This document shows positions 2,389-5,114 of a DNA stretch of 64,000 nucleotides, piece after piece. The stretch is from Desulfobulbus oligotrophicus (GTDB lineage Bacteria; Desulfobacterota; Desulfobulbia; Desulfobulbales; Desulfobulbaceae). The translations under genes and the position numbers were made by a program. How positions within the stretch are numbered: position 1 is the stretch's first letter; each line of letters begins with the position of its first letter. Below the pieces are notes generated by a model, which was not told where the DNA came from, did not search any database, and worked only from the letters and a program-made list of their open reading frames with translations. The stretch is taken from positions 1,097,501-1,161,500 of the forward strand of contig NZ_CP054140.1 in the NCBI RefSeq assembly GCF_016446285.1, read 5' to 3'.

Positions 2389-2580
2389 TTATTCAACCAC
2401 GCTAAAGCCCTTGGCCGCGATTGCCTGTCGCATTGCATCATTATCGATGACTCCTGAAAAACAGGCCTCACCTTTAGCCGGATCCACCTGCACCTCAGTG
2501 GCACCCAGCTCTTCCAGGGCTTTTTTCACCGATCCGGCGCAGTGTTGGCATTTCATACCATTGATACGAACAACTGTCAT
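2389..2580 (-). CDS. heavy-metal-associated (HMA) domain protein, CopZ-like
   Basis: Small cytoplasmic metal-binding protein of 63 residues, one HMA ferredoxin-like domain. The metal site GMKCQHC (Cys11 and Cys14) is the standard MxCxxC loop that binds Cu(I) or similar soft metals. The rest fits the fold: VKKALEELGATEVQVDPAKG, then the last strand. The start at 2580 is chosen because AGGAG lies 6 bases ahead; the ATG two codons earlier directly abuts that AGGAG. It follows the nitrilase-fusion gene by 16 bases. No copper ATPase is next to it, so its partner is unknown. It could be a copper or mercury chaperone. Confidence 0.85.
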   Translation of the reverse strand: MTVVRINGMKCQHCAGSVKKALEELGATEVQVDPAKGEACFSGVIDNDAMRQAIAAKGFSVVE

Positions 2581-2596: not shown

Positions 2597-3886
2597 TTAA
2601 AAAGTGTTGATGGGAGCACGTGCAGAAGCCCTGATCTTATCGATCAGAGCTGTTGTTGAGCGGTCGTGTTGAAAGACGATACGCACGACCCGGCCACCGG
2701 CGGCCTTCACCTCCGAAGCTCCGACAATCTCCGCTTCCGGCCAGTCAGCCCCCTTTACCAGCACATCGGGCAGCAGTGTTGTGATCAGGCGAAGCGGTGT
2801 CGGGTCGGCAAAGAGGATGACATAGTCGACACACCCAAGGGCAGCCAGTACACGGGCCCGGTCCTGCTCGTTATTGACCGGTCTGTCGGCACCTTTGAGG
2901 CTGCGAACCGATGCATCGGTATTGATCCCCACCACCAGACAGTCAGCGGTTCGTCTGGCGGCTTCCAGGTAACTGACATGACCGGCGTGGACAAGATCAA
3001 AGCAACCGTTGGTAAAGGCAAGACGACTCCCCTGTCGGCGGATCAGGCGGGTCTTGGCGGCCACGGTGTCCAGATCCTGTACCTTTTCATGATCCGTAGT
3101 CAGCCAGGAACGATCACCTGCCGGATAAAACCGGTGCCGCTGCTCATCAACAGCCGTGCTGTCCAGTTTAGAGGTAATCACCGCGGCCTCCATGGCTGCA
3201 GATTGCAGAACCGTGCCGTCAGGGGCGACAATCATTGAGTGTCCGGCCATGTCCATATGACCGGTACGGCCGCAGCTGTTCACTGCGGCGACATAGACCT
3301 GATTTTCGATGGCTCGTGCCCTGACCAGGGTTTGCCAATGCTCCAGGCGGCTGCGTGGCCATTGGGCACAGACCGCCAGCAGACGGGCACCTGCAAAAAC
3401 CTGGTGACGTGCTGTTTCCGGGAAACGAAGGTCATAGCAGACCAGTCCGGCGAGAGGACCGAGGGGTGTCTGCAAGGGTGGCGTACTCATTCCCCTCTGA
3501 TAGTATTGATCTTCCTGCCAGTAACCAAACAGGTGCTGTTTGGGAATCTTGCCGACCACACCTTCCGGACCGACAAGAAATAGGGTGTTTCGGGGGAGAG
3601 CGTCGTCTTCAGTCAGTTCGGTCAGAGATCCGGCCAGATAGATGTGATGGGTTTCGGCAAGCCGTGCCATGACCTTCAGGATTTCCGGCGTTCTCTTGCC
3701 AAAGGCGGCTGTCTGCGCATAATCAAAACCAGTGGCCCACATCTCCGGCAGCAGCAGCAGGGTGTCAGGTCCTGGTGCGTGTTCGGCGATCAGAGACTCG
3801 ACCTGTCTGATATTTTCTTCTATCCTGCCGGGAGCAATGGGGAACTGCACACAGGCAACGGCTGGGAAAAGAGACGGTCCGCTCAT
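2597..3886 (-). CDS. nitrilase-superfamily amidase fused to RfaE2-type nucleotidyltransferase
   Basis: One uninterrupted 429-codon frame carries two enzymes. Residues 1-260 are a carbon-nitrogen hydrolase with the Glu-Lys-Cys triad visible at Glu48 (LLLPEMWATGF), Lys116 (GKIPKQHLF) and Cys150 (LVCYDLRFPE). This version resembles the YafV/omega-amidase group. Residues 275-429 are a cytidylyltransferase-fold domain with FTNGCFDLVHAGH (HxGH at 300-303) and a late STTALIDKI segment, matching D-glycero-beta-D-manno-heptose 1-phosphate adenylyltransferase (RfaE2/HldE C-terminal half) of LPS heptose synthesis. The start overlaps the HEAT-protein stop by 4 bases. The two activities are not normally linked, so the biological reason for the fusion is open. 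Domain calls are firm; exact substrates are inferred. Confidence 0.9.
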   Translation of the reverse strand: MSGPSLFPAVACVQFPIAPGRIEENIRQVESLIAEHAPGPDTLLLLPEMWATGFDYAQTAAFGKRTPEILKVMARLAETHHIYLAGSLTELTEDDALPRNTLFLVGPEGVVGKIPKQHLFGYWQEDQYYQRGMSTPPLQTPLGPLAGLVCYDLRFPETARHQVFAGARLLAVCAQWPRSRLEHWQTLVRARAIENQVYVAAVNSCGRTGHMDMAGHSMIVAPDGTVLQSAAMEAAVITSKLDSTAVDEQRHRFYPAGDRSWLTTDHEKVQDLDTVAAKTRLIRRQGSRLAFTNGCFDLVHAGHVSYLEAARRTADCLVVGINTDASVRSLKGADRPVNNEQDRARVLAALGCVDYVILFADPTPLRLITTLLPDVLVKGADWPEAEIVGASEVKAAGGRVVRIVFQHDRSTTALIDKIRASARAPINTF

Positions 3887-4590
3887 TCAGCCATCCTTTC
3901 CAGGGCTGTCTCTGCCAGGGTACCCACTGTGGTCGACTGAAAAGCACCTTCCCAGTACAGAGTCAGGGGAGCTGTATCAGTTACAAGTTTACGTAAAACC
4001 CCTTCAGTGGCTGTTAAGAAGAGGTTACCGACGGCAAGGACGGCAAGTCCTCGTGTTATCCCGTCTTCGGCATGCAGGTAGGCGGGGATGTCGGCACCGG
4101 CGCCCCGCTCGATCAGGAGGCGCGGTCTGCAACCGCTCATCCGGGCAATACCCCAGAGCAGACCCTGTTGCAGGAGCGGATGTTCAAGGTAGTTGCCGTC
4201 CTGATAAAGCTCCTCTCCATCCTCACGCATGTACGAGATCAGCATATGGACATACTCTTCGGCCAGACCGGCATGCTGACACATGACCTCAGCCATGGAT
4301 TCGGGTGCCCCCCAGCCGATGCCGCCGGATTCGTCATTCAGACTCCAGAGGAAGCGGCGCATCACTGTCCGTGCCTCTTCCATTTCTTTTTTTGCCAGCC
4401 GGTTTATGGTATGCCCCATACAGCTGACTGCAAACCAGCGGATATGCGGATCTTCCCGGCAGATTGCCGAAAACAGGGCATTGATCACAGCCTTGGGCGG
4501 ATAGCTGTCCAGTGCTTTGATGATGATGTTGAGGTCCTGACCGTTAAGAAGCGTCAAAACCTCGGTTTTTATTGTTCGACTGTTTGCCAT
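3883..4590 (-). CDS. HEAT-repeat protein, DVU0298-like
   Basis: Protein of 235 residues, helical throughout, with no signal peptide or membrane segment. The stretches IRWFAVSCMGHTINRLA, MRRFLWSLNDESGGIGWGAPE and LEHPLLQQGLLWGIARM look like consecutive HEAT-type helical pairs, and the central ESGGIGWGAPE block strongly resembles the family named after Desulfovibrio DVU0298. That family is mostly found in sulfate reducers and has no known function. The stop overlaps the fusion-gene start (ATGA), and ferritin lies 11 bases upstream, so it is probably co-transcribed with both. The family name is from memory and was not searched. Confidence 0.75.
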   Translation of the reverse strand: MANSRTIKTEVLTLLNGQDLNIIIKALDSYPPKAVINALFSAICREDPHIRWFAVSCMGHTINRLAKKEMEEARTVMRRFLWSLNDESGGIGWGAPESMAEVMCQHAGLAEEYVHMLISYMREDGEELYQDGNYLEHPLLQQGLLWGIARMSGCRPRLLIERGAGADIPAYLHAEDGITRGLAVLAVGNLFLTATEGVLRKLVTDTAPLTLYWEGAFQSTTVGTLAETALERMAE

Positions 4591-4601: not shown

Positions 4602-5114
4602 TTATTCTGCAGCCGGTTCAGTCTCGGTAAAGACCCTTTTTCCCAGTTCTGCATCAACCATGAACAGACCGGATCGGGTCCCCTCAATCAGTTTCAGTTT
4701 GTCGATGACTTCATTGACACTGGCTTCTTCCTCAACTTGCTCTGTAACATACCACTGGAGGAAGATGTTGGAGGCATGGTCCCTTTCGTTGATCGCCAGT
4801 TCAACCAGATCGTTGATAAGGCTTGTCACATGTTTTTCATGGGCAAGTACAGCTTCGAAAACTGCCAGCGGAGTGTCCCAGGTTGCTTCCGGTTTATCAA
4901 TGGCCTCAAGGGTGACCGTGCCGCCCCGCTCATAGACGTAGTCATAGAATTTCATGGCATGCATCATCTCTTCCTGAGCCTGCGCCCGCATCCAGGTGGC
5001 AAAGCCCAGCAGACCGATCGACTGGAAATGGGCTTCCATCGACAGGTAGAGATAGGCGGAGTACATCTCAGCATTAATCTGCTTGTTTATGGCGTTAAGT
5101 ATTTTTTCGTTCAT
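4602..5114 (-). CDS. ftnA: ferritin
   Basis: Cytoplasmic iron-storage protein, 170 residues, typical length for bacterial non-heme ferritin. The four-helix bundle and di-iron ligands are visible: the N-terminal helix with NAEMYSAYLYLSME, the QAQEEMMHAMKFYDYV helix (ExxH ferroxidase pair), and the later ASNIFLQWYVTEQVEEE helix with its Gln and Glu. It oxidises Fe(II) and stores ferric mineral, and in an anaerobe also protects against oxygen exposure. It is the first gene of the minus-strand group running towards the efflux operon and is divergent from the dehydrogenase gene at 5286. A GGAG (in ctccttaa) lies just before the ATG. Confidence 0.95.
   Translation of the reverse strand: MNEKILNAINKQINAEMYSAYLYLSMEAHFQSIGLLGFATWMRAQAQEEMMHAMKFYDYVYERGGTVTLEAIDKPEATWDTPLAVFEAVLAHEKHVTSLINDLVELAINERDHASNIFLQWYVTEQVEEEASVNEVIDKLKLIEGTRSGLFMVDAELGKRVFTETEPAAE

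Follow-up and report, generated by a model that had tools for sequence, protein, structure and literature searches.

The 64,000-nucleotide stretch of the Desulfobulbus oligotrophicus genome analysed here (the window) carries a gene in which a nitrilase-superfamily amidase and an RfaE2-type heptose nucleotidyltransferase are predicted to share a single polypeptide. We consider it quite probable that these are two independent enzymes on one chain, derived from an overlapping gene pair, that the RfaE2 half is tied to the heptose pathway, and that its core has been kept for structural reasons in relatives in which this half is dead.

The fusion protein and its domains

The fusion is a single open reading frame of 429 aa with an ATG start, located at positions 2597..3886 of the minus (-) strand, as are all the features given below. 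Its N-terminal part matches the Pfam CN_hydrolase domain of the nitrilase superfamily over residues 10-248 (3143..3859), with 134.3 bits against a cut-off of 23.2. The C-terminal part matches CTP_transf_like (Pfam; residues 291-384, 62.1 bits, cut-off 21) and the NCBIfam model TIGR02199 rfaE_dom_II (residues 281-419, 2630..3046), for which its 194.1 bits exceed the curated cut-off of 181.5. The amidase catalytic set, consisting of Glu48 (3743-3745), Lys116 (3539-3541) and Cys150 (3437-3439) together with Glu125, is invariant in 31 aligned fusions selected from those retrieved, and so are F291-D297, H300, G302, H303, K378, G379, D381 and S410 of the other half. The GCFDxxHxGH loop, with the HAGH motif at 2978-2989, and the KGxD and ST(T/S) positions are all present in the window protein. 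No kinase domain was found in the 429 aa with Pfam or NCBIfam, and the protein is thus not a bifunctional enzyme of the HldE kind.

An AlphaFold2 model built from 52 aligned sequences has a mean pLDDT of 93.9 and a pTM of 0.76, the relative placement of the domains not being established by it. Confidence is lowest in the interdomain linker (residues 251-285, 3032..3136), where residues 251-260 form the lowest block, with a mean pLDDT of 63. The best PDB matches of the model are nitrilase-fold amidases, 3p8k first; when solved chains are compared by sequence, 3p8k again comes closest to the N-terminal half, and 5x9q comes closest to the C-terminal half.

An initial interpretation based on the letters of the DNA (the sequence-only reading) had described one 429-codon frame with a complete amidase and a complete RfaE2-type domain, of unrelated pathways and not decayed, and the family matches and intact key residues bear this out: as far as sequence can tell, both halves are complete enzymes of unrelated pathways, with no decay in the D. 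oligotrophicus genome. Its concern that an assembly or frame error had joined two genes can be dismissed, given that 103 of the 154 Desulfobulbales genomes have a match spanning the two halves. Both domains also lie in a single frame in the isolate Desulfobulbus alkaliphilus DSM 24258 (L085).

The amidase half

Five CN_hydrolase proteins are encoded in the window's genome (G000; one contig, 3.10 Mb): the fusion, an AguB-like protein (310.4 bits, under its cut-off), Lnt, an NAD synthetase and a 526-aa frame without a family. For the fusion, the best named amidase family is YafV (NF007757), with 124.2 bits against a cut-off of 249, and deaminated glutathione amidase (NF033621) gives 101 bits against 355; among the NCBIfam matches listed, no named amidase family reached its curated cut-off. 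By homology, the N-terminal half is nearest to the YafV, MtnU and Nit2 (omega-amidase) type, from which we infer a putative substrate class. It shares with these enzymes (PDB 3p8k, 2e11 and 2w1v, which we take to be omega-amidases) a common fold and the Glu-Lys-(Glu)-Cys set, but it falls below the family cut-off and is fused. Such an enzyme would probably clear an alpha-keto-acid amide, for instance 2-oxoglutaramate. Omega-amidases in general are described in PMC6302742 as removing the amide from ketoglutaramate after glutamine transamination. By way of comparison only, NitFhit (PDB 1ems) also joins an amidase of the Nit type to a small enzyme that binds nucleotides, the two being discrete proteins in mammals, but the amidase partner there is a HIT-family hydrolase, whereas here it is a nucleotidyltransferase.

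The RfaE2 half and the heptose pathway in D. oligotrophicus

The same genome encodes five CTP_transf_like (PF01467) proteins, of which the fusion is the one that matches TIGR02199; a TIGR02199 search of the whole genome found no second RfaE2, which answers for this genome a check proposed in the sequence-only reading. The remaining four comprise two TIGR01510 CoaD matches and, by eye, NadD and RibF. The two CoaD matches are different proteins (L006:1372-1965 and L009:1369-1932), both above the cut-off of 103.3 (190.1 and 157.8 bits), giving two candidate pantetheine-phosphate adenylyltransferases in one genome.

The RfaE1 kinase has a gene of its own, a 346-aa frame that scores 362.3 bits and so exceeds the cut-off of 345. 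There is also a GmhA-like protein, which at 186.6 bits falls short of its cut-off of 209.45, and two proteins match Glyco_transf_9, the heptosyltransferase family. Since the fusion holds the sole RfaE2 of a genome with a separate RfaE1 kinase, it would supply the ADP-heptose step. Family membership and pathway co-occurrence suggest that its C-terminal half, together with the kinase, turns heptose-1-phosphate into ADP-heptose for the LPS core. It resembles RfaE2/HldC (PDB 5x9q, presumably the Burkholderia HldC) in scoring above the equivalog-domain cut-off, in having all motif residues and in having the kinase as a separate protein, but it sits C-terminal to an amidase, whereas HldC is stand-alone or kinase-fused. 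Likewise, RfaE2 forms the C-terminal half of a bifunctional chain in HldE (RfaE1-RfaE2) as it does here, but the other half of HldE is a PfkB-type kinase, in this genome encoded elsewhere, instead of an amidase.

Neighbouring genes

Directly upstream of the fusion lies a gene for a DVU0298-family HEAT-like protein (3883..4590), the end of which overlaps the fusion ATG by 4 bases (ATGA), and upstream of it lies a ferritin-like gene (4602..5114; Pfam). The sequence-only reading had noted this coupling and seen no explanation in it; both neighbours are confirmed, and we found no functional link. Directly downstream is a gene absent from that reading, encoding an HMA/CopZ-like metallochaperone of 63 aa (2389..2580), with GGAG preceding its ATG.

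In loci of differing length, a HEAT homologue was seen upstream of the intact fusion in 20 of 33 loci of the order, of forms with a dead RfaE2 tail in all 11 and of tail-less amidases in five of seven. As the HEAT gene is common to these three forms, all three share one locus. A dedicated search, again over loci of varied length, did not find it at any of 10 gene pairs or 19 distant fusions. No heptose gene was recognised among the Desulfobulbales neighbours (ferritin and DVU0298-family HEAT) or among those of the gene pairs, and operon logic was set aside as an explanation, the neighbours in both settings having given no functional link.

Distribution of the fusion

Among 154 Desulfobulbales genomes, each at least 90% complete, 103 have a match to both halves, including G455, where the start is cut by a contig end. 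Some of these matches cross a stop codon, which in the frames read lies at the protein end. A dead tail is found in 11 further genomes and an amidase alone in seven, and four have partial matches that were left unclassified, three at contig ends (G441, G038 and G047) and the fourth in G491. The remaining 29 comprise 18 with a weaker, amidase-only match, one of them (G494) near a contig start, and 11 with none. In a sample of 394 genomes from the phylum, at least 53 have a match to both halves, 15 inside the order and 38 outside, as counted by hand from the matches listed, in which full-length matches sort to the top. The fusion is old and widespread within Thermodesulfobacteriota.

Several genomes depart from this pattern in their own ways. 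G012 carries the fusion twice, on contigs C145 and C146, in diverged forms that share 59% and 57% identity with that of D. oligotrophicus. A member of the same genus as D. oligotrophicus (G018; one contig, 99% complete) is without the fusion and without any RfaE2, and it has a GmhA-like protein, two proteins of the Glyco_transf_9 family and an RfaE1-type kinase that at 340.8 bits narrowly misses the cut-off of 345; its three CTP_transf_like matches lie in frames of 175, 218 and 342 aa, lengths that resemble CoaD, NadD and RibF. This may reflect either an assembly gap or a replacement of RfaE2, and G045 and G039 resemble this genome but are fragmented. Six others (G042, G043, G048, G448, G455 and G457) encode, besides the ordinary kinase, a second protein resembling HldE that has diverged; it occupies frames of 505-592 aa, scores about 114-127 bits with the kinase model and perhaps belongs to another heptose or sugar nucleotide pathway.

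Probable origin from an overlapping gene pair

Adjacent nit and rfaE2 genes, in that order, occur in at least ten relatives outside the fusion clade. Ten such pairs were read, six from among the phylum matches listed and four from named records, including Desulfatibacillum alkenivorans DSM 16219 (L128). In all ten, a possible rfaE2 start codon precedes the end of nit, the nearest overlap being 4 to 29 bases, with the proviso that the true starts are not known. The neighbours of the pairs are genes for ComF-like, Cu-oxidase_4 and isocitrate dehydrogenase-like proteins and for the dihydroorotate dehydrogenase (DHODH) electron-transfer subunit, and the ComF-like and Cu-oxidase_4 genes adjoin the pairs in several genomes. 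Three loci (L182, L183 and L185) have a run of isocitrate dehydrogenase, ComF-like, amidase, RfaE2, Cu-oxidase_4 and DHODH electron-transfer subunit; D. alkenivorans has part of the same run, in which this last subunit was not seen.

In a nitrilase tree of 98 rows, made with a quick search, all fusions form one clade (SH-aLRT 96) with the gene pairs outside; a second nitrilase tree was made without the long row dG106. The RfaE2 tree (147 columns, less resolved) was made without 12 rows, namely one relic, two with a non-fusion best match, and near-copies and partial rows, and in it the distant fusion dG103 groups with gene pairs (83). The overlap seen in living relatives suggests that the fusion arose from such a pair by in-frame loss of the nit stop codon, and the simplest history would be a single fusion of two overlapping genes whose translation was probably coupled. 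A single fusion event is not proved, since the chosen outgroup does not fall on one side of any branch in the nitrilase tree and dG103 groups with the pairs.

Dead tails and lost tails

In 11 genomes of the order (G001, G014, G027, G460, G492, G507, G522, G524, G530, G534 and G542), the frame is open over 374-456 aa and always retains E48, K116, E125 and C150 of the amidase, while the HxGH residues H300, G302 and H303 are lost and S410, in the STT region, is absent in every case. Pfam recognised CN_hydrolase alone in the five of these proteins searched. Against a profile made from the RfaE2 domains of intact fusions, each of the 11 tails (12.4 to 90.3 bits) beat the best of 200 shuffles of itself, those nearest the limit being G460 (12.4 against 9.4) and G524 (17.8 against 9.2). 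On the strength of these scores, the tails are RfaE2 relics.

The death of the tail goes together with the absence of the heptose pathway. Among the 103 genomes whose fusion is intact, 98 have a kinase match at E 1e-30 or better, which in 97 exceeds the family cut-off, and the five others are all 90-93% complete; none of the 11 with a dead tail has such a match (Fisher p 7e-12, ignoring kinship). At E 1e-6, TIGR02199 has one match among these 11 genomes, a partial one of 60 bits in G014, and at E 1e-3 it gives 23.6 bits in G001, 60.1 in G014 and 28.3 in G027. A GmhA match is absent in 10 of the 11 (G014 has 71.2 bits), and in the same search it reaches at least 177 bits in seven of eight genomes with an intact fusion; the eighth, G004, has the fusion and the kinase and no GmhA match, and the curated GmhA cut-off was passed by none of the 34 genomes searched. 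Glyco_transf_9 is absent from five dead-tail genomes (G027, G542, G530, G460 and G522) and weak in four, and G001 and G014 have one strong such protein each.

The relics fall in three places of the nitrilase tree: G001 with G014 (88), inside the genus of D. oligotrophicus itself; G027 next to G024 (89); and eight members of family f12, grouped with the tail-less G529 (90). A tree of 61 rows requires the tail to change state five times and the kinase likewise five times. All four independent contrasts agree between tail death and the kinase being lost or HldE gained, a number of pairs too small to reach 0.05; with kinase loss alone, three to four of five agree and none is opposite, again too few for significance. 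These counts were made without G017, which is 76% complete and in which no kinase was found.

In seven genomes of the order (G529, G036, G037, G049, G254, G440 and G444), the amidase stands alone without a tail. Three of them (G036, G037 and G254) have HldE, a single chain that holds both kinase and RfaE2. The G036 version groups with those of Rhodocyclales, Methylophilus and Magnetococcales (99; Pseudomonadota-type), as would be expected for horizontal gain, and that of G037 is a long branch, unplaced in the RfaE2 tree. G447, of the same family as G036, has an intact fusion together with HldE and is a possible intermediate toward such a replacement. In the other four (G049, G440, G444 and G529), there is no kinase, and G444, also without RfaE2, keeps a GmhA-like match of 194.8 bits.

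Discussion

The amidase is kept with a dead RfaE2 or alone, and it thus does not depend on heptose synthesis. The two halves would be under different selection, the RfaE2 half living and dying with the heptose pathway and the amidase half not. This weighs against the proposal, made in the sequence-only reading, of a metabolite-repair step linked to envelope sugar synthesis, in which the amidase would clear a side product of making heptose or the LPS core and the two activities would be required jointly. The pairing is indeed old, as the overlapping genes of ten relatives outside the fusion clade attest, but an amidase with its full catalytic set survives in all 11 genomes with dead RfaE2 and no kinase match, and seven more genomes, four of them without the kinase, have it alone; we regard such a coupling as very unlikely. 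We give even less credence to ammonia channelling, in which the amidase would supply the nucleotidyltransferase in the manner of a glutaminase. NAD synthetase does carry a fused glutaminase domain of the nitrilase type, and D. oligotrophicus has one such protein (L005), but here the RfaE2 half has been lost without loss of the amidase, and the RfaE2 reaction uses no ammonia. The other possibility raised, that this is just an expression fusion, comes nearer to the evidence but leaves out the likely structural bond of the dead tail.

As for the tails themselves, it is conceivable, if in our view somewhat doubtful, that they are leftovers still eroding by neutral decay and have no structural role. 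The tail is wholly missing in some kinase-less genomes (the four named above), and in all ten relic pairs compared the two tails resemble each other less than the two amidase halves do (from 0.76 against 0.77 to 0.34 against 0.56), unlike in four intact control pairs, where the RfaE2 half is as alike as the amidase or more. Erosion has not, however, affected all segments alike. In intact proteins, the catalytic loop (292-304) is the best conserved segment (mean majority frequency 0.95), and the relics keep 0-4 of its 13 residues, as against 8-13 of 17 in alpha1-beta2 (305-321) and 6-16 of 19 in alpha2-beta3 (340-358). The AALGCVD string, exact or one to two letters off, is present in all 11 relics, loop 322-339 keeps 0-4 of 18 residues, and the protein after about residue 373 is mostly deleted. 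Moreover, in the closest relic pair (G492 and G534), the values for the tail (dN 0.142, dS 0.36) are close to those for the amidase (dN 0.137, dS 0.32), and tail and amidase are thus equally constrained; dN/dS is informative for this pair alone, as synonymous sites are near saturation in most relic pairs.

This pattern suggests that the core of the dead tail is kept for the folding, packing or oligomerisation of the amidase. Since the two were joined, the amidase has probably come to rely on the RfaE2 core for packing or oligomerisation, which would explain why that core has so often been retained in a dead and shortened form. Against this, a tail that has died evolves faster, and it is not essential, given that seven genomes have the amidase without any tail. 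Only tentatively do we extend two independent enzymes with a structural remnant to the stronger idea that the RfaE2 fold became a pseudoenzyme module, structural or regulatory for the amidase, in at least three places of the tree after loss of the ADP-heptose pathway. If so, the amidase would depend on, or gain from, a dead nucleotidyltransferase for its assembly or control.

The sequence-only reading had also allowed for the fusion being widespread and already described as two independent enzymes. The former is the case, while for the latter we found no description of an amidase-RfaE2 fusion in the literature, as represented largely by titles and the opening lines of abstracts. Each half is a known enzyme; what we did not find described in those same parts of the literature is their combination, the course of its evolution and the retention of a dead half. 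The fusion gives RfaE2 a third home beside the stand-alone form and HldE, and annotation may name one half only. Furthermore, the whole series from overlapping genes to fusion, dead tail and lost tail is present in living genomes, and these natural variants allow a direct test of whether enzymes, once fused, become tied together structurally.
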